Origin: Ruania zhangjianzhongii
GTDB taxonomy: Bacteria; Actinomycetota; Actinomycetes; Actinomycetales; Beutenbergiaceae
Assembly (NCBI RefSeq): GCF_008000995.1
Contig: NZ_CP042828.1
Span: forward strand, 1,860,001 to 1,924,000
Direction: 5' to 3'
DNA: 64,000 nucleotides
Under the pieces are notes generated by a model, which was not told the origin of the DNA, made no database searches, and worked only from the letters and a program-made list of their open reading frames with translations. Position numbers and translations under genes: made by a program. Below, in pieces: positions 47,734-63,196 of the stretch; position 1 is the first letter of the stretch; each line of letters begins with the position of its first letter.

Positions 47734-50064
47734 ATGAACGCTCGCCATCCGGCCCCCGAGACAACGCCGATCTGGGCCGATGCAGGCCGTAGCGTCCACG
47801 ATCGCGTCGAGGGGTTGCTCGCCGAGCTCACCGTGGCCGAGAAGCTCGCCCAGCTCGGTAGCTATTGGGACGATCGACGCAGCACCGGTGAAATCATCGC
47901 ACCCTTACAAGACGTCTTTCAGCAGGGACGCCCGTCCTTCGACGAGGCGGTCCAGGACGGTATCGGCCACCTCACCCGGGTGTTCGGCACGCGGCCCACG
48001 ACGGCGGCCGGCGGCGTGCGGGCGCTGAACGCAGCGCAGCACACGGTGCGTTCCAGAAGCAGGTGGGGCATCCCCGCGATCGCCCATGAAGAGTGCCTCA
48101 CCGGTTTCACCACGCTCGGCGCTACGGTCTATCCCTCGCCGCTGGCCTGGGGCGCGACCTTCGATCCGGAGGTGATCGAACTGGTAGGGGCAGCTATCGG
48201 TGCCGATATGCGTTCGGTCGGCGTGCATCAGGGCCTGGCGCCTGTTCTGGACGTCGCCCGGGACTATCGGTGGGGCCGGTTGGAGGAGACCATCGGTGAG
48301 GACCCCTACCTGGTGGGAATGATCGGCACCGCGTATGTTCGCGGGATGGAGTCGGCCGGTGTGGTCGCCACGCTGAAGCACTTCGCCGGCTACGCCGGTT
48401 CCCGGGGCGGACGAAACCACGCTCCGGTAGCCATCGGGCCGCGAGAGCTCGCCGACGTCGTCCTGCCTCCCTTCGAGATGGCGATCCGGTTGGGTGGCGC
48501 ACGTTCGGTGATGAACTCGTACTCGGAGATCGACGGGATGCCCGTGGCGGCCGATGCCGAGCTGCTCACCCGGGTCCTCCGTGAGGAGTGGGGCTTCGAG
48601 GGGACGGTCGTCTCCGACTACTGGTCCGTACCATTCCTGAAGTCCAAGCACGGAGTGGCCGCCACAGTGGCGGAGGCGGGCGTGGTCGCGCTCCGGGCCG
48701 GGCTGGACGTCGAGCTGCCGGACACGAGCGGTTTCGGGCTCCTCGGGCCCCTCGTCGAGGACGGCAGGTTGGACGAAGCCCTGGTCGACCGCGCTGTGCG
48801 GCGAGTGCTGCGGCAGAAGGTCGAGCTCGGCCTCCTCGACCCGCAGCAGGAGGCGCCTGGCACGGCCGACGTCGACCTCGACAGCGACACCAACCGCAGC
48901 TTGGCGCGGCAGGTGGCCGAGGAGTCGATCGTCCTGCTGGAGAACCGCCAGGACCTGCTTCCGCTCGCAGACCAGCCTCGGCGGATCGCCGTCATCGGTC
49001 CGTGCGCGGACGACCCGCGCGCGTTCCTGGGCTGCTACTCCTATCCGATCCACGTCCTGGCGCGCCATCCCGAGTATGGTCTCGGCCTCGAGGTGGACTC
49101 GTTGCCCGAAGCGCTCGCCAGCGAGCTCCCCGCTGCCGAGATCGTCACCGCTCCTGGGTGCCCGCTCGCTGAGCCCGACCGCACCGGCATCGCCGATGCC
49201 GTCTCGCTCGCGAGCTCGGCCGACGTCGTCATCGCGGTGGTCGGGGACCGCGCGGGGATGTTCGGACGCGGAACCTCTGGTGAGGGCTCCGATGCCGTGG
49301 ACCTCAACCTCCCCGGAGTCCAGGGAGAGCTGCTCGACGCGCTGCTCGATGCCGGAACCCCGGTGGTCATCCTCAGCCTCTCCGGGCGACCGTATGCGCT
49401 TGGCCGGTACCGCGACCGCGCCGGCGCCCTCGTCCAGGCGTTCATGCCTGGTGTCGAAGCAGCCGGTGCCTTGGCCCGCATGCTCTCCGGCCGCATCGAT
49501 GCCGGCGGACGACTGCCGGTGGAGATCCCCGCGTCGACCGGCGGTGCACCGCACACCTACCTCGGCCCGGCGCTGCAGCACGACGGCGACCGCATCTCGA
49601 ACGTGCGGGTCGCGCCCGCATTCCCGTTCGGTCACGGCCTGTCCTACGGCAGCACCCACTGGGAACCACTGGTCGTCGAAGACCGGGAGATCCCCATGGA
49701 CGGCACGGTGCGCGCCTCGGTGACCGTGCGCAACACCGGGGACCGACTGGCCTGCGACGTCGTCCAGCTGTACGCCCACGACCCGGTAGCGAGCGTGACC
49801 CGGCCGGTCCGCGAGCTGGTGGGCTTCCAACGGTTGCGGCTGGACCCCGGGGCGAGCAAGACAGTGACGTTCGCCGTGCATACCGACAGGTTGTCTTTCA
49901 CCCGCGGCCGGGCGGAGCGGGTGGTGGAGCCGGGGGCTGTGGAATTCTTCGCGGCGCGGTCGTCGCTGGAGGTGGTCTCGTCCGAAGTGGTCGAACTAGT
50001 GGGTCCAACTCGATGCGTGGCCCCTGGCCAGCGCGTCCTGACGACGGAGGTTGAGATTGTCTGA
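47734..50064 (+). CDS. GH3 beta-glycosidase B
   Basis: 776 residues, same architecture as GH3 A: a barrel with PVLDVARDYRWGRLEETIGEDP and nucleophile D295 in TVVSDYWSV, then the sandwich domain and a fibronectin-III-like end (SVTVRNTGDRLACDVVQLYAHD). No signal peptide. AAGGAGG lies five bases before ATG 47734. Catalytic and flanking motifs match GH3 A closely, so the two are paralogues. Its stop codon lies within the first codons of the downstream TIM-barrel gene, so the released sugar is probably handled by that enzyme set. Confidence 0.91.
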   Translation: MNARHPAPETTPIWADAGRSVHDRVEGLLAELTVAEKLAQLGSYWDDRRSTGEIIAPLQDVFQQGRPSFDEAVQDGIGHLTRVFGTRPTTAAGGVRALNAAQHTVRSRSRWGIPAIAHEECLTGFTTLGATVYPSPLAWGATFDPEVIELVGAAIGADMRSVGVHQGLAPVLDVARDYRWGRLEETIGEDPYLVGMIGTAYVRGMESAGVVATLKHFAGYAGSRGGRNHAPVAIGPRELADVVLPPFEMAIRLGGARSVMNSYSEIDGMPVAADAELLTRVLREEWGFEGTVVSDYWSVPFLKSKHGVAATVAEAGVVALRAGLDVELPDTSGFGLLGPLVEDGRLDEALVDRAVRRVLRQKVELGLLDPQQEAPGTADVDLDSDTNRSLARQVAEESIVLLENRQDLLPLADQPRRIAVIGPCADDPRAFLGCYSYPIHVLARHPEYGLGLEVDSLPEALASELPAAEIVTAPGCPLAEPDRTGIADAVSLASSADVVIAVVGDRAGMFGRGTSGEGSDAVDLNLPGVQGELLDALLDAGTPVVILSLSGRPYALGRYRDRAGALVQAFMPGVEAAGALARMLSGRIDAGGRLPVEIPASTGGAPHTYLGPALQHDGDRISNVRVAPAFPFGHGLSYGSTHWEPLVVEDREIPMDGTVRASVTVRNTGDRLACDVVQLYAHDPVASVTRPVRELVGFQRLRLDPGASKTVTFAVHTDRLSFTRGRAERVVEPGAVEFFAARSSLEVVSSEVVELVGPTRCVAPGQRVLTTEVEIV

Positions 50065-51043
50065 ACAGTTCACTGCCCGGTCGTGGCCGATCGCGGCCAG
50101 TACGCTGCCCTTTGCCGGAGTCACCCGTGCGGGCCGGCTCCAGCACGAGGCTGATGCTGGTGAGTGGGCGGCAGTCTTCGATGAGGTGGCTGCGGCGGGG
50201 TTTGATCATGTCGATCTGACCGATAGCTGGCTGCGGGTGGGGGATGTGGCCGCCGAGCGGTATGGCGAGCTTGCGGCGGCGGCTGCTGAGGCGGGTGTGG
50301 CGTTCGGCTCGGTCTCGGTGATCCGGCAGAGCGTGATCCACGCCGAACGTGGTGCGGAGAACCTTGCCTACAGTCATCGCACGATCGAGGCGGCTGCTGC
50401 ACTGGGGATCGAGACGGTCTCGGTGGGGTTGCATCAGGAGCTGAGTCCTGCCCAGCGTGAGGCGTTGTGGTTCTGGACCCAGCCGGGTCATCAGGACCGC
50501 CCGGAGGACTGGGACCTGGCAGTGGCGCGGTTGCGTGAGCTCGGCGATCATGCCGCACAGGTCGGGGTGCTGTTGTCGTTGGAGATGTACGAGGACACGT
50601 TCCTGGGAACGGGTGAGTCGGCAGTGCGCCTGGTTGAGGACATCGGTTCGGAGGTGGTGGGGCTGAATCCGGATATCGGGAACCTGGTCCGGTTGCACCG
50701 GCCGGTGGAGACGTGGCGCAGTCTGCTCGAGGCGACGCTGCCGTACACGAACTACTGGCATGTGAAGAACTACTCCCGCACCGAGGATCCCGATCGGGGT
50801 CTCTATGTGGCGCTGCCGGCGACGATGGAGAGCGGGCTGATCGACTACCGGACCGGTCTCAAGCTCGCGGTGGAGTATGGCTTCCAGGGCGTGATCTGCA
50901 CGGAGCACTACGGCGGTGACGGGCTGAGCGTGTCTGCGGCCAACCGCGACTACCTGCGCCGGCATGCGCTGCCCAAGCGCGGCGACTATGAGCTGGGGCG
51001 CAGCCGGGTGCGCCAGATCAACCGGTCTGGGGCAGCGTCATGA
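50057..51043 (+). CDS. Sugar-phosphate isomerase/epimerase-like TIM barrel (possible 3-oxo-acid decarboxylase)
   Basis: 328 residues, xylose-isomerase-like TIM barrel with metal-ligand candidates in LLSLEMYEDTFLG (Glu), VGLNPDIGN (Asp), YWHVKNY (His) and VICTEHYGGDG (Glu). Enzymes of this fold isomerise tetrulose phosphates or, in the apionate route, decarboxylate a 3-oxo acid to erythrulose; which applies here is open. I choose TTG 50057: the GGAGG at 50046-50050 is six bases away, whereas an in-frame TTG at 50051 abuts it. It overlaps the GH3 stop by eight bases and the kinase start by four, so all are one operon. Confidence 0.82.
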   Translation: MSEQFTARSWPIAASTLPFAGVTRAGRLQHEADAGEWAAVFDEVAAAGFDHVDLTDSWLRVGDVAAERYGELAAAAAEAGVAFGSVSVIRQSVIHAERGAENLAYSHRTIEAAAALGIETVSVGLHQELSPAQREALWFWTQPGHQDRPEDWDLAVARLRELGDHAAQVGVLLSLEMYEDTFLGTGESAVRLVEDIGSEVVGLNPDIGNLVRLHRPVETWRSLLEATLPYTNYWHVKNYSRTEDPDRGLYVALPATMESGLIDYRTGLKLAVEYGFQGVICTEHYGGDGLSVSAANRDYLRRHALPKRGDYELGRSRVRQINRSGAAS

Positions 51044-52854
51044 CGAGGCTGCACAACGATCCCGATGAGTTCGTAGCGCAAGCGTTGGAGGGTTTCCTGG
51101 CCGTGCACAGCGGCGCGGTGCGCGGGGTCGACGGCGGTGTGGTCCGGGCTCAGGAGATGTCCGAGGGGCAGGTCGCTGTGGTGATCGGGGGCGGGTCGGG
51201 GCACTATCCGGCATTCGCCGGCGTGGTCGGGCCGGGCCTGGCGGCGGGGGCGGTCTGCGGCAACATCTTCACCTCGCCCTCGGCGGGGCAGGCCTACCGG
51301 GTGGCCACGGCGGCCGAGGCGGGTGGGGGAGTGCTGTTCTCCTATGGCAACTATGCCGGTGACGTGATCCACTTCGGCAAGGCCGAGCAGCAGCTGCGGG
51401 CGGAGGGGATCGATACCCGCACGGTGCTGGTCACCGACGATATCGCCAGCGCACCGGCGCAGAATCACCTGGAGCGGCGGGGGATAGCCGGGGATCTGGT
51501 GGTGTTCAAGATCGCTGGTGCCGCTGCCGAGCGTGGCGATGGTCTGGATGAGGTCGAACGTCTCGCGCGGCTGGCCAACGAGCGCACCCGCAGCCTGGGG
51601 GTCGCGTTCGCCGGGTGCACGTTCCCGGGCGCGGACGAACCGCTGTTCACCGTCCCGGAGGGAATGATCTCCATCGGGCTGGGCATCCATGGTGAGCCCG
51701 GTATCCGTGATGTGCCGGCGATGGGCGCTGACGAGCTGGCCGCCACACTGACCGCGGAGCTGCTCGCGGACGTACCGGCCGATCGCGGTGATCGGGCGGT
51801 CGTACTGGTCAACGGGCTGGGTACGGTGAAGTACGAAGAGCTGTTCGTGCTCTACCGCGGGGTGGCCCGCGAGCTGGAACGAGCCGGGGTGAGCATCGTC
51901 GAACCTGAGTGTGGGGAGCTGGTCACGAGCCTGGATATGGCCGGGGTCTCGGTGACGCTGCTCTGGCTCACCGAGGAGCTCGAAGAACTGTGGAGTGCAC
52001 CGGCACACACGCCGGCCTTCCGGAAAGGAACCCTGACCGGCACCGGCACCGGCACCGGCACCGGAGTGGGCATGGGCACCGGCACGGGAGTGGGCATGGG
52101 CACCGGAGCGGGCAGGGGCCGGGCCCAGCACCACCGCGCCCGCGCCTCGGCGGCGCCCCGGCCGGTAGCGGTGCCCGCGGCCTCGGCCCGCTCGCTGGAG
52201 CAGGCTCGGGCCGCGATCACGTGGCTGAGCACAGCGCAGACCACGCTGCACGAGCACGCCGAAGAACTGGGCCGCCTGGATGCCGTGGCCGGTGACGGTG
52301 ACCACGGGGTCGGCATGACCCGGGGGATCGACGCCGCCCTGGCGGCCGCATCCGTAGCCGCAGGGGACGGGCTGCGTGCGCTGCTGGCTGCGGCCGGGGA
52401 GGCCTGGAGCGAGACCGCCGGGGGTACCTCCGGTGCTCTCTGGGGCGCCGCACTGCAGGCCCTCGGTCCGGTCCTGGACGACGTCGACCTCGTCAGCCAG
52501 CCGCGCACGTGGGGCACCGCGGCCCGCGCAGCCCTGGAGACCATTCAGCAGCTCGGCAAGGCTCAGCCGGGCGATAAGACCATGGTCGACGCACTCGACC
52601 CGTTCGTTCGCACGCTCGAAGAACGCCTCGGTGCGGGCGAGGCGCCGGTCACCGCGCTGAGCGCCGCGGCCGATGCCGCCACCAGCGCGGCCGAGCAGAC
52701 CGCACGACTACGACCAGCCCTCGGGCGTGCCCGCCCGCTGGCCCAGAAGAGCCTGGGACACCCCGATCCCGGGGCGACCTCGCTCGCCCTGGTGACCTCC
52801 GCCGTCGCCAGCTCACTGGCAGGACCACAGCAGAGGCGACCTGACCTGACCTGA
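51040..52854 (+). CDS. Fused DhaK-DhaL kinase (dihydroxyacetone/tetrulose kinase type)
   Basis: 604 residues, ATP-dependent single-chain type. The DhaK domain (1-325) has GGGSGHYPAFAG with H55, D108 in NYAGDVIHFG, and H217 in LGIHGEPG, the residue that covalently holds the ketose. The DhaL domain (about 383-600) has the Mg-ATP aspartates in DAVAGDGDHGVGMT and GDKTMVDALDPF. The linker (about 326-382) is an unusual Gly-Thr/Gly-Met repeat. It starts inside the stop of the TIM-barrel gene. Dihydroxyacetone, erythrulose and related ketoses are all possible substrates; operon context favours a breakdown intermediate made by the TIM-barrel enzyme. Confidence 0.88.
   Translation: MTRLHNDPDEFVAQALEGFLAVHSGAVRGVDGGVVRAQEMSEGQVAVVIGGGSGHYPAFAGVVGPGLAAGAVCGNIFTSPSAGQAYRVATAAEAGGGVLFSYGNYAGDVIHFGKAEQQLRAEGIDTRTVLVTDDIASAPAQNHLERRGIAGDLVVFKIAGAAAERGDGLDEVERLARLANERTRSLGVAFAGCTFPGADEPLFTVPEGMISIGLGIHGEPGIRDVPAMGADELAATLTAELLADVPADRGDRAVVLVNGLGTVKYEELFVLYRGVARELERAGVSIVEPECGELVTSLDMAGVSVTLLWLTEELEELWSAPAHTPAFRKGTLTGTGTGTGTGVGMGTGTGVGMGTGAGRGRAQHHRARASAAPRPVAVPAASARSLEQARAAITWLSTAQTTLHEHAEELGRLDAVAGDGDHGVGMTRGIDAALAAASVAAGDGLRALLAAAGEAWSETAGGTSGALWGAALQALGPVLDDVDLVSQPRTWGTAARAALETIQQLGKAQPGDKTMVDALDPFVRTLEERLGAGEAPVTALSAAADAATSAAEQTARLRPALGRARPLAQKSLGHPDPGATSLALVTSAVASSLAGPQQRRPDLT
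52036..52110 (+). repeat. In-frame microsatellite coding the kinase linker
   Basis: ACCGGC is repeated nearly five times from 52036 to 52064 (Thr-Gly). It is followed by two 24-bp units at 52063-52086 and 52087-52110 that encode GVGMGTGT and GVGMGTGA. All units are multiples of three, so length changes keep the frame. Confidence 0.9.
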
Positions 52855-52960
52855 CCAGACCGGCCAACACACCCAGCACACCCAGCCCCCGCCTCAGCTA
52901 CTCGGTCGAACGCTCGGACACGATCGCAGCCATCACCGCCCACGAAGAGGAACAGACACG

Positions 52961-53911
52961 ATGACCACACCCACGATCGCCATCGTCGGCTCCGGGTACA
53001 TGGGCGGAGGCATCGCCCAGATCTTCGCCCTGGCCGGCCATCAGGTCCGCATCGCCGACGTCGACGCCGCCACCGCGCAGTCCAACTATCAGCGCATCCT
53101 CACCGAAAGTCGCGAATTCGTCGATGGCGGTCTGCTCGCGCCGGGCGCAACCGAGACGATCCAGACCAACCTGTCCGCGGCGAACACCATCGAGGAGGCG
53201 GTCGAGGGCGCCGACTTCGTCGAAGAGGCAGTTCCCGAGATCATCGAGATCAAGCACACGATCCTCGGCCGGATCTCCGCTGCGAACTCCAGCGCCACGA
53301 TCGGGAGCAACACCTCGACGATCTCCATCGAGGCACTCGCCGGCGGGGTGAACGGCCCGGAGCGATTCCTCGGCGTGCACTTCTCCAACCCGGCTCCGTT
53401 CATCCCCGGCGTCGAGGTGATCCCGCACCCGGGGACCGACCAGGCGCGCATTCCCGGCGTCGAACACCTCCTGCTCGGCATCGACAAGATTCCCGCTCGG
53501 GTGAAGGACAGCACCGGGTTCGTGCTGAACCGCCTGCAGTATGCGCTGTTTCACGAAGCCACCCAGCTGGTCGAGGAGGGGGTGGCGACCACGGAGGACG
53601 TCGATGCGATCGTGCGGACCACGTTCGGCTTCCGACTGCCGTTCTTCGGCCCGTTCGCGATCGCCGACATGGCTGGTCTCGACGTGTACGACTTCTGCTA
53701 CCGATCCCTGCAGACACGCTTCCCGGAGCGCTTCGCCACTCCTGAGTCCCTGACCGAACTGACGGAGGCGGGCAAGCTCGGGACGAAGACCGGGGGAGGC
53801 TACCGGGACGTCGACCCGGACCGGATCGCCGACCTGGTGGCCTACCGCAACCGCGCCTACGCACGGATGAAGGAGGTTCTGGCCGAGCTCGGCCCGTCGC
53901 CGTTCGAGTGA
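52961..53911 (+). CDS. 3-hydroxyacyl-CoA dehydrogenase-fold oxidoreductase
   Basis: 316 residues: an N-terminal NAD domain (IAIVGSGYMGGGIAQIFALAGHQVRIADVD) and a helical C-terminal domain (DSTGFVLNRLQYALFHEATQLVEEGVAT). The catalytic His-Glu pair is present as H140 and E152 in GVHFSNPAPFIPGVEVIP, the same 12-residue spacing as in HCDH. The fold also serves L-gulonate and carnitine dehydrogenases, which oxidise a 3-hydroxy acid without CoA. No other fatty-acid gene is nearby, so a sugar acid is the likelier substrate (inference). It follows the kinase gene by 106 nt. Confidence 0.83.
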   Translation: MTTPTIAIVGSGYMGGGIAQIFALAGHQVRIADVDAATAQSNYQRILTESREFVDGGLLAPGATETIQTNLSAANTIEEAVEGADFVEEAVPEIIEIKHTILGRISAANSSATIGSNTSTISIEALAGGVNGPERFLGVHFSNPAPFIPGVEVIPHPGTDQARIPGVEHLLLGIDKIPARVKDSTGFVLNRLQYALFHEATQLVEEGVATTEDVDAIVRTTFGFRLPFFGPFAIADMAGLDVYDFCYRSLQTRFPERFATPESLTELTEAGKLGTKTGGGYRDVDPDRIADLVAYRNRAYARMKEVLAELGPSPFE

Positions 53912-53994: not shown

Positions 53995-54011
53995 TGTTAG
54001 ACTGTCTAACA
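53995..54011. promoter_or_regulatory. Perfect 17-bp palindrome upstream of the GHL6 genes
   Basis: TGTTAGACTGTCTAACA: 8-bp arms around a single base, 25 nt before the GTG at 54037. It overlaps the -10 of a possible TTACAA-17-TCTAAC promoter (53982-54010). A 13-of-17 match lies at 58152. A repressor site, perhaps for a GntR-type protein, is inferred. Confidence 0.75.
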
Positions 54012-54036: not shown

Positions 54037-56151
54037 GTGACAACGACGGATGCCCGACCCGCAGATGTGACGAGCGTTCGATCGCCGGAGTGGTATCACA
54101 CGGCGACGCGGTGGACCCAGGTGACGTTCACCGACGATGACCCGGGGACCTTCGACCTCGATTTCTGGGTGGACCTGATGAAGCGCACCAGGTCCAATGC
54201 GCTGTGTGTGAGTGCCGGCGGATACATGGCGTTCTACCCCACGCAGCTGCCGTACCACCGCCGCAGTGCCAACCTTGGCGACGGCGACGCGTTCGGTGAT
54301 CTCGTCGCCGAAGCGCGCGCACTGGGTATGCACGTGATGGCGCGGGTGGACCCGCATGCGATTCGTGCCGACGCCGCACAGGCTCATCCCGAGTGGCTCG
54401 CGCGAGACGAGGACGGCAATGCGATCGAGCACAGCTCGATGCCCGGGGTGTACTGGACTGACCCGTTCAGCACGTATCTGACCGAGCACATCACCGAGAT
54501 CGCTCAGGAGATCACGCGCGAGTACGACGTCGACGCACTCTTCGCCAATCGCTGGGAGACCGTCAAGGGCGTCTCCTACTCGGAGCCGGTCGCACGGCGG
54601 TTCCACGCCGATACCGGTTATCACCTCCCGCGGGCGAGCGATCTCGAGGATCCGGCGTGGCCCGCCTACAGCGCCTGGCGCAGTCATCGGTTCAGCGAGC
54701 TGGTCGGCCGGTGGGACGATGCGGTCCGGTCGGTCAAGCCGCACGTGCGCTTCATGCCGAACCGCTCGGCGTCGCTCACCCGGGACCTGGTGCGCGAGCT
54801 GATCGAAGACCGCTACCCGATGTTCGTCATCGACAAGCAGGGCCGCTGGGATGATGAGCCCGCGTGGATCCCGGGCCAGATCGGCAAGCGCGCCCGGGGG
54901 CTCTGGCCGGACCGTCCAGCTGCCCTGCTCGCCTCCGTGGGCACCGAAGATCACGTGCTGCGGTGGAAGGACTCGGTGACGAACCCGCACGAGCTCCGCA
55001 GCTTCGTGGTGGACGGCTTCGCCCAGGGTGCGCGGCCGTGGTTCTCCAAGTTCAAAGCGGACCTGTTCGACCACCGCTGGGTGGAGCCGATCGTTGAGGC
55101 CTTCGACTGGCACGCACGCACCGAGCACCTGCTGGAGGGCCTGACGGTCACTGCCGACGTCGCACTGTTGGACTGCCGCGCCCCGCTCGGCCCCACGCCG
55201 TGGCAGCTGTCCGACCGACACCCGCGGGCGCATGAGGACGGCGTCTACCAGGCGCTGATCGAGGCCAGGATCCCGTTCGAGTACATCGCGGACGAGACGC
55301 TCACGGCTGAGCGCCTCGAGGGAATCAGAGTGCTCGTCCTGCACTCCGGATCCGACCTGGACCCGGAGCATGTGCAGATCCTGGAGGACTATGTCGCCCG
55401 GGGAGGCAGCATCGTCGCCGCCTACGATGCCTCGCTCACCGGCCAGAGCGATCGCCGGCTCGCCCTGGGCGAGACGCTGGGCGTTCGCCTGGTCGAGGAC
55501 GTGCGCGGCCCGGTCAAGAACAACTACATCACCCTCACTCCGGGCCATCCGGTCTCGGCCGGCTACGACGGTGCTACCCGCATCGTCGGTGGTACCCGGG
55601 TGCTCGGGGTCGAAGCGGTCGACGATACCGAGGTGGCCTTTCGCTTCATCCCGGACTATCCCGACCTGCCGATGGAAGAGGTCTATCCCCGCAGCTTCGA
55701 TGGCCCGCCAGCTGTGGTCACGCGAGAGCACGAGACTGGGGCGCGGACCGTCTACATTGCCTTCAACATCGGCGAGGTCTACTGGCAGGCACTGCAGTCC
55801 GACCATGGCCGGCTGATCGCGAACGCGGTGCGGTGGGCACTCGGAGGTACTTCGCCGCGGGTCGAGGTCAACGGCTGCGGGCTGATCGACATCGCGGTGC
55901 GCGAGGGCCAGGACCAGCTCGCAGTATCGCTGGTCAACCTCAATCACCCGATGGCGATGCGCGGGCAGCGGCACGAGACCGTGGCGTTGGTCGACCAGAC
56001 GATCGTGGTCCGGTTGCCCGCGGGCGTCTCCTCGGTCACGGCACGCCTCGTGCTCGCCGATCAGGAGATCGAGGCCACGGTCACCGGCGGGCTCGCGACG
56101 ATGCGCCTAGAGCGCCTCGACCTGTTCGAGACCGTCCACCTGGTGTGGTGA
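54037..56151 (+). CDS. GHL6-type putative glycoside hydrolase, copy 1
   Basis: 704 residues, no signal peptide. A TIM-barrel domain of the hypothetical glycosyl hydrolase 6 type (about 20-330: NALCVSAGGYMAFYPTQLPYH, VMARVDPHAIRADAAQAHPEW, DALFANRWE) is followed by a beta-galactosidase-trimerisation-like alpha/beta domain (about 375-560: GIRVLVLHSGSDLDPEHVQILEDYVARGGSIVAAYD) and a beta tail. Such proteins are distant relatives of alpha-amylases and GH42 and their substrates are unknown. GTG 54037 is the first start after the 17-bp operator. A divergent paralogue follows immediately. Confidence 0.78.
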   Translation: MTTTDARPADVTSVRSPEWYHTATRWTQVTFTDDDPGTFDLDFWVDLMKRTRSNALCVSAGGYMAFYPTQLPYHRRSANLGDGDAFGDLVAEARALGMHVMARVDPHAIRADAAQAHPEWLARDEDGNAIEHSSMPGVYWTDPFSTYLTEHITEIAQEITREYDVDALFANRWETVKGVSYSEPVARRFHADTGYHLPRASDLEDPAWPAYSAWRSHRFSELVGRWDDAVRSVKPHVRFMPNRSASLTRDLVRELIEDRYPMFVIDKQGRWDDEPAWIPGQIGKRARGLWPDRPAALLASVGTEDHVLRWKDSVTNPHELRSFVVDGFAQGARPWFSKFKADLFDHRWVEPIVEAFDWHARTEHLLEGLTVTADVALLDCRAPLGPTPWQLSDRHPRAHEDGVYQALIEARIPFEYIADETLTAERLEGIRVLVLHSGSDLDPEHVQILEDYVARGGSIVAAYDASLTGQSDRRLALGETLGVRLVEDVRGPVKNNYITLTPGHPVSAGYDGATRIVGGTRVLGVEAVDDTEVAFRFIPDYPDLPMEEVYPRSFDGPPAVVTREHETGARTVYIAFNIGEVYWQALQSDHGRLIANAVRWALGGTSPRVEVNGCGLIDIAVREGQDQLAVSLVNLNHPMAMRGQRHETVALVDQTIVVRLPAGVSSVTARLVLADQEIEATVTGGLATMRLERLDLFETVHLVW

Positions 56152-56153
56152 GG

Positions 56154-58154
56154 ATGGCCGCGCAGACCGGCCCCTGGTGGCGTGCGCCGTTCCGCGGGTT
56201 CCAGACCAATCTCCGGCAGATCGACCCGAGCGGGCTCGATGTCGAGAAGGTGCTCGACACCATCGAGGAGTATGGCGCCGACACCTGGCTGCTGAGTGTG
56301 GGCGGCATCATCGCGAACTACCCCAGCGAGCTCGACTGTCAGACGGTCAACCCGACGCTGGCCCAGCGTGCTTCCGGGGACGTCATCGGTGACGCGGTCG
56401 CGGCTGCTGGCCGGCGTGGCATCCGGGTGCTCGCTCGGATGGACTTCTCGAAGATCGACCGGCGGCGGTCGGAGCGGTACCCGCAGTGGTGTTTCGTCGG
56501 CCCGGACGGCGAGCCGCAGGTCTACAACGGCTACCGCAGCGTGTGCCCGTCGAGTGCGTACTACCAGCAGAAGATGTTCGACGTCGTCGGGGAGGTGCTC
56601 GGCCGATACGACATTCGCGGCTTCTTCTTCAACATGATGCACTTCAACGAGTACGACTACTCACGCCGGTACCGGGGAGTCTGCCAGTGCGAGTCGTGCC
56701 GGGTGGCGTTCGCCGCCCATGCGCCCGGCGTTGCGCTACCGACCGGACCGTCGTCGTCCGGATACGCGACCTGGCGCAGCTTCGCGACCGAGACCTTGGA
56801 GGACCTCAACCAGAGGATGAGCGAGCACATTCGGTCGCTCGCGCCGGAGGCGGCCCTCCTGCTCAAGGACAACGCTGACGTCACCTACTACGAGGCCAAC
56901 AACGCCGTAGGGCGACCGTTGTGGCACACGGCGACCGCCGAATCGGTGAGCGCCTCGCGCACAGCGGACCCGGAGCGCACGGTGTACGTCAACTGTGTGG
57001 GCTTCGTCGATATGCCCTACCGGTGGGCCGGCGAGGATCCGCACCACTTTGCCCAGTACCTCCTGCAGACGATCGCACACGGCGGCAGTCCCTCGACCTA
57101 CGTGATGGGGCTGCCGGAGACGGGCGGGTATGACTGCCTGACGATGGGGTCCTGGATCACCCGATTCCATCGGGACAACACCGACATGTATGCGGGCCTG
57201 CGGTCGGCCGCCCGCGTCGGGCTGGTGCGGGGGACGGGCACGGGGACTGATGCCGCGCAGCGGCTCGCGGAGTTCCGTGGCTGGTACCAGTCGTTGCAGG
57301 AGTCCCACATCCCGTTCGATGTGGTCCGCCAGGACCTGCTGAGCGACGAGCTGGCGTCGCGCTATGACCTGTTGATCCTGCCGGCGCTCGGTGCGCTCGC
57401 TCCCGATGCGGTGGCAGCGGTCGAGGCGATCCTCGCCGCGGGCGGCACCGTGGTCGCGGTCGGGGACTCGGCGTGGCACAAGGGGGACCTGCAGATCGGG
57501 ACCGCTGCGCCGCTTGCGACGCGAACGGCACAGTTCACTACTCAGGAATCGTTGTTCTCCCTGCACCTCCCGGTGGGCTCCGGGTACGCACCGGCGATCG
57601 GTGCCTTCGAGGTGCTGCAGGGGCGCGAGGGTGCCGAGGCGGACTGGTACGCCCTCGGTCGGTCGACCTACGGTCCGCCGGAGCTCTGCTACGGCAACGA
57701 GCCCACCCCGCACCCCGGTTGGCTGGCCGGAGCCGAGGGGCCCGGACAGCTCGCCCTCGTGCCCTGGCGGCCGGGGCAGGCCTTTCACGAGCTCGGTCTG
57801 CACCGAGTGCGGGAGGGCCTCATCGACAAGGTCCTCGAGCTGACCGGCCGTGCGGACCAGCTGCGGATCGAGACCGACCTGCCCGGGCAGGTGCAGCTGG
57901 TCCTCGGCCGCAACTGGTCCGGGGCCACGGTGCTGCATCTGCTGAACCGATCGGGCGATAAGCCCCAGCGGTTTGTCGAACCGCTGCCGATAACCCCGGG
58001 TGCGGTGCGTATCCCGAGTGATCGCGAGCCGGTACGGGCCCGCGCCCGGGTGGCTGGCGTCGACCTCGAGTGGACGTTCACCGGGACCCACGTCCAGGTA
58101 CAGACACCGGAGCTGGGACTCTTCGAGGTGATTGAGTTAGACATGCAATCTTGA
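56154..58154 (+). CDS. GHL6-type putative glycoside hydrolase, copy 2
   Basis: 666 residues, same two-domain layout as copy 1 but clearly divergent: a barrel (TWLLSVGGIIANYPSELDCQTVNP, VLARMDFSKIDRRRSERYPQW, GFFFNMMHFNEYDYS with a CQCESC motif near 180) and a trimerisation-like domain (YDLLILPALGALAPDAVAAVEAILAAGGTVVAVGD). ATG 56154 lies two bases after the copy 1 stop; GTG 56148, with the classic four-base overlap, is equally possible. Its stop codon is the first three bases of the second 17-bp palindrome. Cytoplasmic; activity unknown. Confidence 0.78.
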   Translation: MAAQTGPWWRAPFRGFQTNLRQIDPSGLDVEKVLDTIEEYGADTWLLSVGGIIANYPSELDCQTVNPTLAQRASGDVIGDAVAAAGRRGIRVLARMDFSKIDRRRSERYPQWCFVGPDGEPQVYNGYRSVCPSSAYYQQKMFDVVGEVLGRYDIRGFFFNMMHFNEYDYSRRYRGVCQCESCRVAFAAHAPGVALPTGPSSSGYATWRSFATETLEDLNQRMSEHIRSLAPEAALLLKDNADVTYYEANNAVGRPLWHTATAESVSASRTADPERTVYVNCVGFVDMPYRWAGEDPHHFAQYLLQTIAHGGSPSTYVMGLPETGGYDCLTMGSWITRFHRDNTDMYAGLRSAARVGLVRGTGTGTDAAQRLAEFRGWYQSLQESHIPFDVVRQDLLSDELASRYDLLILPALGALAPDAVAAVEAILAAGGTVVAVGDSAWHKGDLQIGTAAPLATRTAQFTTQESLFSLHLPVGSGYAPAIGAFEVLQGREGAEADWYALGRSTYGPPELCYGNEPTPHPGWLAGAEGPGQLALVPWRPGQAFHELGLHRVREGLIDKVLELTGRADQLRIETDLPGQVQLVLGRNWSGATVLHLLNRSGDKPQRFVEPLPITPGAVRIPSDREPVRARARVAGVDLEWTFTGTHVQVQTPELGLFEVIELDMQS

Positions 58155-58179
58155 CAGACAGTCTGACATGTATAAGTAT
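58151..58179 (+). promoter_or_regulatory. Second 17-bp palindrome with TTGACA box, ahead of the transporter genes
   Basis: TGACAGACAGTCTGACA at 58152-58168 matches the 53995 palindrome at 13 of 17 positions and keeps the GAC-N-GTC core. A consensus -35, TTGACA (58151-58156), overlaps it, with AAGTAT 17 bases further. It suggests an internal promoter under the same regulator. Confidence 0.65.
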
Positions 58180-58232
58180 TGCGGTACGACAGGCCCTGCG
58201 GGGCACTCACTTCCAATGACGGGAGAATCACC

Positions 58233-59546
58233 ATGGTTGTGCTCAGTCGACGAAGCCTCTTCACGGTCGCCGGTGCTGCGGTCGGAGGCGGCATCCTCTC
58301 CGGGTGTACCGGTGTGGCCGGGTCCGGCGGTAGCGGCGGCGGTGATGGCGGCGGCGGTGCTTCCGGAACCGTGAGCTATGCGTTCTGGGGTAACACCGTC
58401 CGCGAAGAGAACTACCGGACGGCCTTCGAGGACATGGCCGAAGAGGTCTCCGACATTCAGCTGGAGATCGAGTTCGCGGACTACAACGCCTATCGCGAGC
58501 GGATGACCACCCAGATGGCAGCCCGCAACGTCGCGGACATCTTCTGGGTGCCGTCACCCGACGTGCTGACGTATCACGCGAACGACCTCTTCCGTCAGGT
58601 CGACGACATCGACTCTCTCGACCTCTCCGACTTCGACGACTCCGACATCGAGTCCTTCAAGCTGAGCGGCGAGTTCAACACGATGCCGTTCGGCGTGCAC
58701 ATCCCAGTGTTGCGGTACAACCGCACATTCGCCGAGGAGGACGGCGTCGAGATCCCCGACCAGTGGAGCTGGGACGAGCTCGCCGAGTTCTGCCTCGATT
58801 ACAGCGACAACAATCCCCACGATCGGCGGGCTCTGTCCTACCGGGCGGACCACGACCTGTCGCTGCAGAACTGGCTACGGCAGCACGGCGAACAGTTGTG
58901 GACCGAGGAGGGCGGGCTCGGCTTCACCGCCGAGACCATGATCGCCTGGATCGAGTGGTGGGAGAGGCTCCGCGAAGCCGGTGCGACGACCTCGATCAGC
59001 GAGCAGGACGGCGTCGAGCCGAGCTGGGAGGACATCGGTGACATCACACTGCTGCACTTCGGCAACGCCAACCATGTGATCGACGATGCGGCGATGTTCC
59101 CCGACTTGGAGTTCTCGCTGATGCACCCGCCGGTGGCGTCCGACGCGGTCGCCGGGTACCAGTTCCTCTACACCCCACGGATGGGGCTGTACTCCGGTGT
59201 CTCCGACGACGTCGTGGAACCAGCCGGTCATGTGCTCAGCTACGTCATCAACAGCATCGACCTGCTCCGGGAGGTCGGCTTCACGATGGGAACCCCGATC
59301 AATCCGCGGGTCGCCGAGGAGTACCGCGAGTTCGCCACGCCCCTCGAGGTGGAGATGATCGACCTGGGCGAGGAGAACCGCTCCGCCGACCGAACCCCCT
59401 TCTACGAATCGCCGCCTGGCTCCAGTGAGTGGCGGGTCACGCTGCGGCGGGTGCTCGAGGGGATCATCGACGGCTCGACGACCATCCCGGCCGGAGTCGA
59501 CCAGATGATGTCCGAGGTTACGGACAGCCTCGAGAGAGCGAGCTGA
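58233..59546 (+). CDS. ABC sugar transporter, substrate-binding lipoprotein
   Basis: 437 residues. A signal with an RRSLF start and lipobox LSGC (residues 1-26), a Gly/Ser linker, then an extracellular-solute-binding family 1 domain (VSYAFWGNTVREENYRTAFEDM, FWVPSPDVLTYHANDLF, PFGVHIPVLRYNR). It captures the glycoside at the outer membrane face for import. ATG 58233 has GGGAGA six bases upstream; earlier in-frame starts lack a ribosome site. It is followed in order by two permease genes. Sugar identity unknown. Confidence 0.92.
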   Translation: MVVLSRRSLFTVAGAAVGGGILSGCTGVAGSGGSGGGDGGGGASGTVSYAFWGNTVREENYRTAFEDMAEEVSDIQLEIEFADYNAYRERMTTQMAARNVADIFWVPSPDVLTYHANDLFRQVDDIDSLDLSDFDDSDIESFKLSGEFNTMPFGVHIPVLRYNRTFAEEDGVEIPDQWSWDELAEFCLDYSDNNPHDRRALSYRADHDLSLQNWLRQHGEQLWTEEGGLGFTAETMIAWIEWWERLREAGATTSISEQDGVEPSWEDIGDITLLHFGNANHVIDDAAMFPDLEFSLMHPPVASDAVAGYQFLYTPRMGLYSGVSDDVVEPAGHVLSYVINSIDLLREVGFTMGTPINPRVAEEYREFATPLEVEMIDLGEENRSADRTPFYESPPGSSEWRVTLRRVLEGIIDGSTTIPAGVDQMMSEVTDSLERAS

Positions 59547-59553
59547 CCGTCCG

Positions 59554-60507
59554 ATGTCCCAGACGCTGACGGACTCAGCGAGGTCTGGGTCGCAAGCCGC
59601 GCCACCACCCCCCTCGCGGCGGAAGAGGAAGTCGTGGCGTCGTCAGGAGGGTGCTGCGCACGTCTTCATGCTCCCGTGGCTTCTCGGCCTGGTGCTGGTG
59701 ACCGCGGTGCCGATGCTCGCGTCGTTGTACCTGTCCTTCACGAACTACAACGTGCTCTCCAGCCCTGAATTCATCGGCGGTGAGAACTTCGCCCGACTGG
59801 TCGAGGACCCTCGGTTCTGGAACTCGGTCCGGGTCACAGTGACCTATGTGTTCGTCTCGGTGCCTTTGCAGCTGGCGTTCGCGTTGTTGTTGGCCCTGGT
59901 GTTGGACAAGGGTCTGCGCGGACTGGCGATCTACCGAAGTGCGTACTATCTGCCGTCACTGCTGGGCGGTTCGGTAGCGGTCGCGGTGCTGTGGCGGCAG
60001 GTGTTCGGCCATAGCGGGCTGGTGAACCAGTTCCTCGCCCTGTTCGGAGTGGAGGGTTCGAGCTGGCTGCAGAACTCCGGAACCGCGCTCGGCACCCTGA
60101 TCATCCTCAACGTCTGGACCTTCGGGTCGCCGATGATCATCTTCTTAGCGGGCCTGCGCCAGATCCCCGAGGAGTACTACGAGGCGGCCCGGGTGGACGG
60201 CGCATCGGCGGTCCGGCAGTTCAGCAAGATCACCGTGCCGCTACTGACGCCGATCATCTTCTTCAACCTGATCTTGCAGACGATCGGAGCGTTCCAGGCG
60301 TTCACGCAGGCACACATCATCAGCGGCGGAACCGGCGGGCCCTCAGACTCGACCCTGTTCTACACGCTGTACATCTATCAGAAGGCATTCGTCAGCTTCG
60401 ACATGGGTTACGCCTCCGCCCTGGCGTGGGTGCTTCTCGCGGTGATCGGGATCATCACCGCGGTGCACTTCACCTTGTCCAAGTACTGGGTGTTCTACGG
60501 AGATTGA
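59554..60507 (+). CDS. ABC sugar permease, MalF/UgpA type
   Basis: 317 residues with six membrane helices after a basic N-terminus (RRKRKSWRRQEG). The cytoplasmic EAA loop EEYYEAARVDGASAVRQFSKITVPLL contacts the ATPase. Forms the channel with the next gene's product. Starts 8 nt after the binding-protein gene. No ATPase gene is present in the window, so it presumably uses a shared MsmK-type ATPase encoded elsewhere. Confidence 0.94.
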   Translation: MSQTLTDSARSGSQAAPPPPSRRKRKSWRRQEGAAHVFMLPWLLGLVLVTAVPMLASLYLSFTNYNVLSSPEFIGGENFARLVEDPRFWNSVRVTVTYVFVSVPLQLAFALLLALVLDKGLRGLAIYRSAYYLPSLLGGSVAVAVLWRQVFGHSGLVNQFLALFGVEGSSWLQNSGTALGTLIILNVWTFGSPMIIFLAGLRQIPEEYYEAARVDGASAVRQFSKITVPLLTPIIFFNLILQTIGAFQAFTQAHIISGGTGGPSDSTLFYTLYIYQKAFVSFDMGYASALAWVLLAVIGIITAVHFTLSKYWVFYGD

Positions 60508-60508
60508 G

Positions 60509-61417
60509 ATGGCTGAATCGACGATGACAGCGACGGAGCACCCGCCCACCTCCACGGGGCGGCTCGGCCAGCGTGCCTCGATGACGCAGCGCCGTCGGCG
60601 TAGCAGCATCCTGCGGCACGGGGGCCTGATCCTGTTCGGAATCTTCATGCTCTACCCGCTGATCTGGATGGCGGTCAGTGCTTTCAAGCCGGGGCATCTG
60701 GTGCTGACTGACCCGAGCATCATCCCGACCGAGCTCACCCTGGAGAACTTCAGGCTCGGCTGGGAGGTCGGGGAGTACACCTTCCTGGTGTTCTTTGCGA
60801 ACTCGACGATCGTGGCGCTGAGCTGTGTCGCCGGGAATCTGATCGCGTGTTCCCTGACGGCGTATGCCCTGGCACGCCTGGAGTTCCGCGCGCGTAAGGT
60901 CTACTTCGCGATCGTGCTCGTCTCGGTCATGCTACCGATGCATGTGACGATCATCCCGCAGTACATCATCTTTGCGAATCTGGACCTGGTGAACACGTTC
61001 GTGCCGTTGATCCTGCCGAAGTTCCTCGCCACGGATGCGTTCTTCATCTTCCTCATGGTGCAGTTCATCCGGGGGATTCCTAGAGAGTTGGATCAGGCGG
61101 CGTGGATCGACGGGTCGGGCCCCTTCCGCACGTTCTGGTACATCGTGTTGCCCTTGATGCGGCCAGCCTTGATCACGACGGCGATATTCACTTTCATCTG
61201 GACCTGGAACGACTTCTTCGGCCAGTTGATCTACCTGACCGACAATGCGGTCTACACCGTGCCGGTGGCGTTGAATGCCCTGGTCGACTCGACGTCGAAC
61301 CAGGGGGTGGGGACGCTGATGGCGATGTCGCTGCTGTCTCTCGCGCCGATCCTGTGCTTCTTCGCCTTTGCGCAGAAGTACTTGATCAAGGGCATCTCGA
61401 CCACGGGCTTGAAGTGA
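60509..61417 (+). CDS. ABC sugar permease, MalG/UgpE type
   Basis: 302 residues, six membrane helices, EAA loop RELDQAAWIDGSGPFRTFWYIVLPLM. Partner of the upstream permease; its ATG is one base after that gene's stop. A cytoplasmic basic lead (TQRRRRSSILRHGG) precedes helix 1. The dehydrogenase gene follows after 28 nt, so both probably belong to the same message. Confidence 0.94.
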   Translation: MAESTMTATEHPPTSTGRLGQRASMTQRRRRSSILRHGGLILFGIFMLYPLIWMAVSAFKPGHLVLTDPSIIPTELTLENFRLGWEVGEYTFLVFFANSTIVALSCVAGNLIACSLTAYALARLEFRARKVYFAIVLVSVMLPMHVTIIPQYIIFANLDLVNTFVPLILPKFLATDAFFIFLMVQFIRGIPRELDQAAWIDGSGPFRTFWYIVLPLMRPALITTAIFTFIWTWNDFFGQLIYLTDNAVYTVPVALNALVDSTSNQGVGTLMAMSLLSLAPILCFFAFAQKYLIKGISTTGLK

Positions 61418-61445
61418 TCGAGATCGACCCGGAAGGGGGTCCGAG

Positions 61446-62405
61446 ATGATCGACACGATCGTGGTCAAGCGGCCGGCGGCTCCGTCCGTTCAGCAGCTGA
61501 AGCAGGCTGCCGCGGGACGAGAGGTGGTGGAGATCGAGCAGGTGAGCGAGCAGAGCTGTCGGGCGAGCGGAGTCGACCCTCTCCGCGTCGGGGCGGTCCT
61601 CGGTGCCTCGCCCGGGGATGACCTGAGCTTCCTGCCAGCACTGCGGTGGGTGCACAGCAGCGCCGCCGGCGTGGATGCCTGGATGGCGGCTGGGGCGATA
61701 CCGGACCAGGCACTCTTGACCTCCGCCGTCGGCAACGGGGCGGTCCCGCTCGCGGAGCATGCGCTCCTCCTGATGCTCATGCTGAACCGAGACGCGCCGC
61801 GGTGGTTCCGGGCGCAGCAGCGGCGGGAGTGGGACCGCTATGTGCACGGTGAACTTGCGGGGGCGTCTCTGGGCATCGTGGGCTACGGCAACAGTGGGAC
61901 TGACCTCGCAGGGAAGGCCCTGGCATGCCATATGCAGGTCCGTGCACTGCGCCGGAGTGTAGGTCCGGCGCAGGACGGAGACGTCCGTCTGGTGTACCAC
62001 CGGGAGGGGCTGGAGGAGCTGCTCCGGGAGAGCGACTTCGTTGTGGTCACCACCCCCCTCACCGCGCTGACCCGGGGCCTGATCGGTGCCGAAGAACTGG
62101 CGCTGATGATGCCGAGCGCGTTCCTCGTGGTGGTCTCACGTGGCGGCATCGTGGACGACGACGCGCTCCTCGCTGCGCTCCGAGAGGGCACGATCGCCGG
62201 CGCTGGCCTTGACGCGCATGGCGACGAGCCGCTTCCCGCTGACAGTGAGCTGTGGGACCTGCAGAATGTCATCGTCACTCCGCATAATGGCGCGACGACG
62301 CCCGGTACCGGTGAGCGTGGTCGCCAGATCGTGCTCGATAATGTCGCTCGCTGGGTGAACGGGGACACGCTGGTCAACGTGGTCGATCCGTCCCAAGGCT
62401 ACTGA
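61446..62405 (+). CDS. D-isomer-specific 2-hydroxyacid dehydrogenase family protein
   Basis: 319 residues. Substrate domain with WVHSSAAGVDAW; NAD domain with GIVGYGNSGTDLAGKAL near residue 140; catalytic Arg in VSRGGIVDDDAL, Glu in DEPLP and His in VTPHNGATTPGTGER. It reduces or oxidises a 2-keto/2-hydroxy acid in the cytoplasm. Last enzyme gene of the transporter operon, GGAAGGGGG before ATG 61446. It could reduce a keto acid from sugar breakdown; the substrate is not known. Confidence 0.88.
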   Translation: MIDTIVVKRPAAPSVQQLKQAAAGREVVEIEQVSEQSCRASGVDPLRVGAVLGASPGDDLSFLPALRWVHSSAAGVDAWMAAGAIPDQALLTSAVGNGAVPLAEHALLLMLMLNRDAPRWFRAQQRREWDRYVHGELAGASLGIVGYGNSGTDLAGKALACHMQVRALRRSVGPAQDGDVRLVYHREGLEELLRESDFVVVTTPLTALTRGLIGAEELALMMPSAFLVVVSRGGIVDDDALLAALREGTIAGAGLDAHGDEPLPADSELWDLQNVIVTPHNGATTPGTGERGRQIVLDNVARWVNGDTLVNVVDPSQGY

Positions 62406-62428
62406 GGTTGGCCCGTGCGACAGGTAAT

Positions 62429-62441
62429 CTTGCCTAGCAAG
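62429..62441. promoter_or_regulatory. Inverted repeat upstream of the GntR gene
   Basis: CTTGCCTAGCAAG, extended by one more pair to 62428-62442: 6-bp arms around CTA, 24 nt after the dehydrogenase stop. A 9-of-13 match, CTTTGCTTACAAG, lies at 53976-53988 in the GHL6 promoter. Candidate GntR autoregulatory site. Confidence 0.45.
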
Positions 62442-62515
62442 AGATGAGTGAGGGCCGTGTGGTGAGTCGGACAGGATTCGGCGCCCAGTGGCCACGACCA
62501 GTGGAGAGGATGCAC

Positions 62516-63196
62516 GTGGCTACGTCGTCGCAGTACAAACTCGGACCATCCTCGCTAGGTGAGGCGCTTTTCGAGGCGCTGCGAAGCAGGATCATCAACG
62601 GTGATATCGCTCCGGGTGAAAAGGTGACGGAGCTTCGAGTCGCCAGCGAGTACGGTATCGCGCGACCGACCGCGAAGGCGTGCCTGGAGCGGCTCACCGC
62701 CCTAGGGCTTCTTCGCCGCGTGGCGCACAAGTCCGCCGTAGTGCCGCGGCTGACCGATGCTGAGATCAGGGACCTCTTCTTCAGCCGGTCGACTTTCGAG
62801 TCGACCGCAGTCGCGCATCTGGCGGGCAAGAAGAAGGTCCCGGAGGAGCTGACCCGCGCTCAGCAAGCGATGCAGGCAGCCGAGGCGCACGGCGAGTTCA
62901 CCGAACTCGTCCAGGCCGACATCACGTTCCACTGGGGCCTCGTGCGAGGCTTCGAGAGTGAGCGACTGAGCCGCATGTACGAGATGATCTCCGGTGAGAT
63001 CCAACTGACGATCGGGCAGTACCAGGCGCACCGGCGCACCACGCTCTCGACCGTGACTGCTGAACACCAAGCGGTCATCGATGCGATTGCCGTAGGCGAC
63101 GTCGAGGCGGCGTGCCACGCGCTGGCGGGGCATATCAGCCTCGCCCGGGATCGGGTGCTCGCCGAGCTGCACAGCCACGACGTGCCATCGGCTTGA
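62516..63196 (+). CDS. GntR-family regulator, FCD type
   Basis: 226 residues: a GntR winged helix (about 10-75; LRSRIINGDIAPGEKVTELRVASEYGIARPTAKACLERLTALGLLRR) and an all-helical FCD effector domain (about 85-215) with metal-ligand candidates (ADITFHWGLVRGF, EHQAVIDAI, LAGHISLARDR). FCD regulators sense organic or sugar acids. I choose GTG 62516, with GGAGAGG six bases upstream; the ATG at 62444 would place the start two bases after the inverted repeat. Likely regulator of the GHL6-transporter operon. Confidence 0.85.
   Translation: MATSSQYKLGPSSLGEALFEALRSRIINGDIAPGEKVTELRVASEYGIARPTAKACLERLTALGLLRRVAHKSAVVPRLTDAEIRDLFFSRSTFESTAVAHLAGKKKVPEELTRAQQAMQAAEAHGEFTELVQADITFHWGLVRGFESERLSRMYEMISGEIQLTIGQYQAHRRTTLSTVTAEHQAVIDAIAVGDVEAACHALAGHISLARDRVLAELHSHDVPSA

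Follow-up and report, generated by a model that had tools for sequence, protein, structure and literature searches.

What compound do two divergent GHL6 proteins act on when they are encoded side by side with importer genes, a 2-hydroxyacid dehydrogenase and a GntR regulator? This question is raised by seven genes at 54037-63196 of the window, that is, the whole 64,000-nucleotide stretch of Ruania zhangjianzhongii DNA (contig NZ_CP042828.1) analyzed here. Reading of the open reading frames places all seven on the plus strand, and both their coordinates and their Pfam families (GHL6 twice, SBP_bac_8/SBP_bac_1, BPD_transp_1 twice, 2-Hacid_dh_C, and GntR plus FCD) agree with the gene content given in an original prediction made from the sequence alone. 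We regard it as an even call that these genes are an operon dedicated to the catabolism of a small acidic glycoside and regulated locally. This answer is built on gene content, conservation, the genes found as partners, a lost nucleophile, the fold of GHL6B and site enrichment in relatives, and a recurrent, dedicated uptake-and-breakdown system for a small compound is supported; the compound is probably acidic.

The first two genes encode GHL6A (54037-56151, plus strand, 704 aa), a GH151/GH42-like protein, and the GH151-like GHL6B (56154-58154, plus strand, 666 aa), with a gap of 2 bp between the TGA stop at 56149-56151 and the start at 56154. They score 64.7 and 94.1 bits, respectively, against PF14871 (GHL6; gathering cut-off 35), are whole-length paralogues of each other (profile comparison E 9e-77, 653 columns, 18% identity), and show no obvious signal peptide when read by eye. 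The original prediction held that GHL6 proteins have no known activity. This does not apply to the Pfam family, as the alpha-L-fucosidase Mfuc3 is described, in the passages cited here, as matching pfam14871 (PMC4723247) and as now assigned to glycoside hydrolase family 151 (GH151; PMC10154630). The fucosidase activity is, however, not transferable to the two proteins themselves, because both are without the GH151 nucleophile.

This loss is uniform. Asn171 of GHL6A and Asn160 of GHL6B align to chain position 183 of 6tvk, which with a numbering offset of 29 (chain length 689, residue numbers 1-660) is Asp154, the GH151 nucleophile at the end of strand beta-4; neither protein has this Asp, and Asn occupies the position in 43/43 A and 81/81 B sequences. 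At the probable acid position (GH151 Glu235, end of beta-6), GHL6B carries Glu247, which never varies and sits in strand 243-248 (assigned here to barrel strand 6), and GHL6A carries Asp266; the residue-level alignments to 6tvk lie outside this strand. A and B also keep many further polar barrel residues without exception (R103/R95, D105/D97, Q28/Q17 and the acid at beta-6), and the predicted fold of GHL6B shows the GH151 domain set of barrel, Rossmann-like middle domain and C-terminal beta-sandwich. Compared with GH151 alpha-L-fucosidases (ALfuk2 of Paenibacillus thiaminolyticus, 6tvk; Mfuc3), the pair thus differs in having Asn for Asp154, at 16% identity, and in its genomic setting, which is that of a glycerate-type pathway. 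GHL6A may also differ from GH42 beta-galactosidases, whose catalytic Glu lies at the end of beta-7: its profile consensus aligned to 3tts has no Glu in this nucleophile region (the GHL6B alignment fell outside the strand). GHL6A and GHL6B may therefore act without the usual carboxylate nucleophile, by inverting or substrate-assisted catalysis. In a distant GHL6 protein at locus L211 the strand reads GIHLDY, with Asp at the place of the Asn of A and B; this protein is the single further match from a 149-genome phylum sample, too few to generalize on Asn across GHL6.

The pairing of the two genes is kept elsewhere, as had been predicted. An A-like match at 1e-20 occurs in 4/396 genomes of the phylum and in 21/297 genomes of the order, 14 of the latter being clear (E <= 6e-117, own genome included). 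Since B lies in the same 20-kb stretch as A in 14/14 of these clear-A genomes, the pairing is above chance, and the recurrence of the gene set fits the predicted dedicated system for a small imported substrate. B itself is present in 21/297 genomes of the order. A scan of contigs with GHL6A alone as query had given no confirmed match; a B profile run against GTDB contigs gave 103 relatives, the best 80 of which provide the locus counts below, with A counted above 200 bits and some stretches being short. A is present at 42 of these 80 loci and directly upstream of B at 15. A count by eye puts the A-bearing loci in 20 genera: Ruania, Isoptericola, Auraticoccus, Brachybacterium, Nonomuraea, Occultella, Kribbella, Nocardiopsis, Allonocardiopsis, Saccharopolyspora, Rhodococcus, Phytoactinopolyspora, Kineococcus, Inquilinus, Microlunatus (a distant copy, 27%), Plantibacter, Labedella, Promicromonospora, Actinopolymorpha and Pseudonocardia.

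What the relatives add is a set of enzymes for three-carbon acids. Tartronate-semialdehyde reductase (TSAR) is found at 60/80 B loci, and in 30/80 it is directly upstream of B on the same strand; 2-hydroxyacid dehydrogenase (2-HADH) is found at 63/80, both permeases at 54/80, hydroxypyruvate isomerase (Hyi) at 35/80 and glycerate kinase (GlxK) at 5/80, the last closing the cluster in 4/4 relatives of the same genus in which it occurs. At 6/80 loci there is malate synthase G or GlcD, and at 6/80 a PcaD-like hydrolase. The gene order of the window operon is that of Nonomuraea loci (A-B-SBP-perm-perm-2HADH-GntR-Hyi-TSAR, where SBP is the solute-binding protein) minus the final Hyi and TSAR, and because TSAR, Hyi and GlxK are all absent from the window operon, the original prediction did not include these partners. 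Hyi tracks A, occurring at 34/42 loci with A and at 1/38 without it (Fisher 8.5e-14, the loci not being independent); the lone locus with Hyi but without A, L183, is on a short contig. When the count is restricted to the 59 loci flanked on each side by 6 kb or more, the presence and absence of Hyi is 31 and 5 with A versus 0 and 23 without A, and that of TSAR is 35 and 1 versus 12 and 11. No association of A with 2-HADH or GlxK was seen across the B loci. As a control, a single distant GHL6 type has neither TSAR nor Hyi at 5/5 loci (L085-L088, L094). This division, B going with TSAR and A with Hyi, suggests that two distinct products are formed or that two bonds are involved.

In profile searches, the nearest solved structures of the cluster TSAR are tartronate-semialdehyde reductases (1yb4, 1e-111), and those of the cluster Hyi-like protein are 3ngf and YgbM. 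The cluster glycerate kinase is above its subfamily cut-off (366 vs 168). Cluster TSAR copies score 301-365 bits against TIGR01505 (cut-off 340.75), with those of four Occultella genomes above the cut-off and the others listed at 301-338; the L081 copy scores 377. Cluster Hyi copies score 215-310 bits against TIGR03234 (cut-off 353.45). The safe names are TSAR-like and Hyi-like.

Several GHL6 loci in other settings were also seen. A third GHL6 of the window genome (L085, 9723-11909; G000:C2 at about 2516723-2518909) has its own binding protein and permeases, and no TSAR or Hyi lies within its 20 kb. L194, L198, L201, L205 and L196 combine GHL6B with peptide-type ABC importers and glycolate/glyoxylate or glucarate genes, partly with glucuronate genes; they have no clear A and make up another GHL6B system, distinct from that of the window. 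At L078, L079, L080, L089 and L090, GHL6B occurs without A next to a binding protein of another kind and a small gene (about 120-149 aa), called HIT-like by eye; the L078 copy has no Pfam match at 1e-10.

Hyi, TSAR and GlxK are the same three downstream families as in the glyoxylate/allantoin pathway (Gcl-Hyi-GlxR-GlxK, Gcl being glyoxylate carboligase), but the GHL6 clusters differ from that pathway at its entry. One Gcl query, at over 300 bits, found Gcl at 0/80 B loci, and feeding of the pathway by Gcl was rejected on this ground. Among the 14 genomes of the order with A and B, Gcl is above cut-off in 6 (G000, G406, G450, G460, G574, G661) and not in 8. In these 8, the single Hyi (1e-35) and the single TSAR (1e-60) found are both in the GHL6 cluster, and 5 of the 6 Gcl-bearing genomes have, by coordinates, a Gcl-linked Hyi and TSAR besides second copies in the cluster (the Gcl operon was mapped in G000, G406 and G460). 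The cluster Hyi and TSAR of the relatives are therefore independent of Gcl. In the window genome (G000), the only Hyi and TSAR sit at C2:3190642-3192357 with Gcl, glycerate kinase and allantoin genes, and the strain must thus borrow them or use something else. The surrounding stretch (L096, G000:C2:3180001-3200000) is the allantoin/glyoxylate operon of this genome.

The importer genes give a hint of the substrate. Downstream of GHL6B follow a lipoprotein solute-binding protein (58236-59546, plus strand), whose best start at 58236 gives a lipobox-like LSGC near the N-terminus as read by eye, and two BPD_transp_1 permeases at 59554-60507 and 60509-61417 (both plus strand), whose closest NCBIfam models, below cut-off, are of the UgpA/MalF and UgpE/GlcU types, respectively. 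No ABC ATPase gene is among the seven, and these genes alone therefore do not make a complete importer. The nearest solved relatives of the binding protein are YesO, 4r6k and 4ovj, with YesO as the best match (1.8e-35, full length) and 2uvh lower (1.9e-23). The resemblance to the YesO-YesPQ rhamnogalacturonan-oligosaccharide importer of Bacillus subtilis extends to two CUT1-like permeases and no ATPase of its own; unlike that system, no GH105 YesR-like hydrolase is recognized by Pfam among the seven genes. According to the passages cited, YesO binds rhamnogalacturonan I oligosaccharides with a Kd of 1.6 uM and does not bind digalacturonic acid (PMC7596534).

Neighboring genes in relatives likewise indicate sugars of the acidic kind and acids of two or three carbons, though from B types other than that of the window. 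Among B loci without a clear A, L194 combines beta-glucuronidase at 881 bits (cut-off 544), glucuronate isomerase at 512 (387) and ManD at 700 (550), L201 has beta-glucuronidase, L205 has ManD, and L196 has KdgD (415, cut-off 374) with a glucarate dehydratase just below cut-off. At L081, malate synthase G scores above its cut-off, whereas a GlcD-like protein falls under its own. Among the families examined, no fucose, galactose or other sugar-specific genes recur beside A+B clusters. Gellan or another high-acyl polysaccharide was considered as a possible source of L-glycerate and set aside.

The last two genes encode a D-2-hydroxyacid dehydrogenase (61446-62405, plus strand), putatively a hydroxypyruvate or glyoxylate reductase although all its NCBIfam matches are below cut-off, and a GntR/FCD protein (62444-63196, plus strand), the putative local regulator of the operon. 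An operator-like perfect palindrome, TGTTAGACTGTCTAACA, lies at 53995-54011, 25 bp before GHL6A, and a degenerate second copy with 3 mismatches lies at 58152-58168, after GHL6B and before the binding protein; the original prediction mentioned neither. With up to 3 mismatches allowed, the window yields just these 2 matches (expected 0.04) and the 5.1-Mb genome no others, the first being its only perfect copy. However, a backwards control also has 2 genome sites, and perfect palindromes with arms of at least 8 occur in the window 11 times, both of which speak against an operator. The copy at 58152-58168 is alone no better than the backwards control; it is its position that speaks for it. A search of 211 loci for the exact core gave no copy beyond the region of the window itself, and a scan for sigma-70 promoter and terminator consensus gave no excess over chance. 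In relatives, another motif, TTGTCNGACAA, stands out: at up to 1 mismatch and over the 42 A loci, the 15.6 kb of intergenic DNA within clusters carry 51 sites, against 4 in the remaining 46.7 kb of intergenic DNA and 16 in 725 kb of coding DNA, with 32/42 loci having the motif. Nineteen permuted motifs, which control composition only, gave 0-3 sites in the cluster intergenic DNA. This enrichment is post hoc, as the motif was chosen after viewing the upstream regions of the same loci.

From these data we infer a substrate class, a chemistry, a direction of flux and what GntR would bind. The lipoprotein and the two permeases, with an ATPase from elsewhere, would import the compound, on which the paralogous GHL6A and GHL6B would act inside the cell without the usual carboxylate nucleophile. 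One product would be a three-carbon acid at the level of tartronate semialdehyde, hydroxypyruvate or glycerate, which in relatives TSAR, Hyi and 2-HADH would bring to D-glycerate; glycerate kinase would then give 2-phosphoglycerate, with no need for Gcl. In the window strain, TSAR and Hyi of the Gcl/allantoin operon would have to serve in trans. The GntR/FCD regulator would release the promoter once an acid intermediate binds. A variant route from L-glycerate to D-glycerate would require exactly TSAR, Hyi and 2-HADH and be redox-neutral; we think this version unlikely. It is a tentative proposal, held with less confidence than the operon itself, that GHL6A and GHL6B found a glycosidase-like group free of the carboxylate nucleophile, in which B is tied to TSAR and A to the isomerase, and that together they let an acidic glycoside of plants or soil enter the tartronate semialdehyde/hydroxypyruvate pool independently of Gcl, possibly via L-glycerate.

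A number of observations weigh against this pathway. The window operon itself is without TSAR, Hyi and GlxK, and 20/80 B loci (some stretches short) are without TSAR. On a tree of B proteins (n=81), A changes at least 6 times, and in 6 independent pairs Hyi is concordant with A in 3-4 and never opposite (p 0.125-0.25) and TSAR is concordant in 3-5 (p 0.0625-0.25); the tree is a quick one with some unsure long branches, and 6 pairs are too few for Hyi to reach significance. Hyi is below the curated cut-off in 17/17 genomes, including copies beside a true Gcl, and TSAR is below it in 9/17, with the best copy above in 8/17; the enzymes may therefore act on larger analogues. As for the substrate, 4r6k and 4ovj nearly tie with YesO as matches of the binding protein, and the glucuronate genes sit in few loci, of B types other than that of the window. 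As for regulation, the Gcl operon of the window genome has no TGTTAGACTGTCTAACA site within 3 mismatches, and no TTGTCNGACAA site at up to 1 mismatch lies in the window, so that the window palindrome is only loosely tied to the motif of the relatives, a variant of it at best.

The same evidence bears on other accounts of the two proteins. They might be ordinary GH151/GH42-like hydrolases whose substrate is a sugar of a known type (an alpha-L-fucoside or a beta-galactoside, for instance) and whose catalytic residues are others, with the three-carbon enzymes as mere neighbors. This seems unlikely: no matching carboxylate is found at the beta-4 Asp of GH151 or, for A against 3tts, in the GH42 beta-7 region, sugar-specific genes of the families examined do not recur beside A+B, and a TSAR directly upstream of B in so many loci is too regular for a bystander. 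At the other extreme, the change of the nucleophile to Asn in all A and B compared would suit catalytically dead carbohydrate-binding or regulatory relatives, with 2-HADH and its partners working on an imported hydroxyacid; the invariance of the other polar barrel residues and the retention of two full three-domain enzymes across 20 genera make this quite improbable. Between these in weight, a doubtful but somewhat better account is the obligate hetero-oligomer, whose active site would be completed across subunits. GH151 monomers complement each other's active site in the passages cited (PMC10154630), and a clear A is never seen without B in the 14 genomes of the order. The heteromer of the original prediction is nevertheless not supported as an obligate one, given B without a clear A in 7/21 genomes and the 38/80 loci with no A in the stretch (some of them short), and A is not always adjacent to B.

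A further question is where the pathway begins. Within 54037-63196 there is indeed no numbered glycoside hydrolase gene, as had been stated, but a GH3-type gene lies upstream on the same strand (47734-50064). It belongs to a module at 47734-53911 with an AP_endonuc_2 barrel protein, a fused dihydroxyacetone kinase (PRK14479 match above cut-off) and a 3-hydroxyacyl-CoA-dehydrogenase-like protein; at about 52020-52140, between Dak1 and Dak2, a low-complexity GT-rich coding stretch reads like a Gly-Thr/Gly-Met repeat linker. The module is a candidate beta-oxidation/decarboxylation route for a sugar acid. A shared strand and short gaps, with 126 bp from the dehydrogenase to GHL6A, would fit a single pathway with GHL6 in this strain. 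We consider this very unlikely, as relatives of 50051-51043 (56/198 order genomes) and 52961-53911 (49/198) are mostly near each other, and in A+B genomes (G422 and G257, for example) are separated from GHL6 by at least hundreds of kb, and as the palindrome stands between the two modules. GHL6A is therefore taken as the start of its own unit, and the single pathway was set aside for this separate conservation. An apiose-type pathway was set aside too, the genes concerned belonging to the upstream module and the literature search having yielded no usable paper on such a pathway.

A search of the open-access literature found no description of such a GHL6 gene cluster, and our claim is limited to that search. 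If the dedicated operon is real, it would give many soil actinomycetes, across the 20 genera, an additional carbon source and an additional route into central metabolism, and would explain the presence of Hyi and TSAR in genomes without Gcl. A GH151-fold pair with its nucleophile changed to Asn would offer a clear case on which to test substrate-assisted or inverting mechanisms. The substrate can be tested directly by way of the gene set, the conserved sites and the binding protein.

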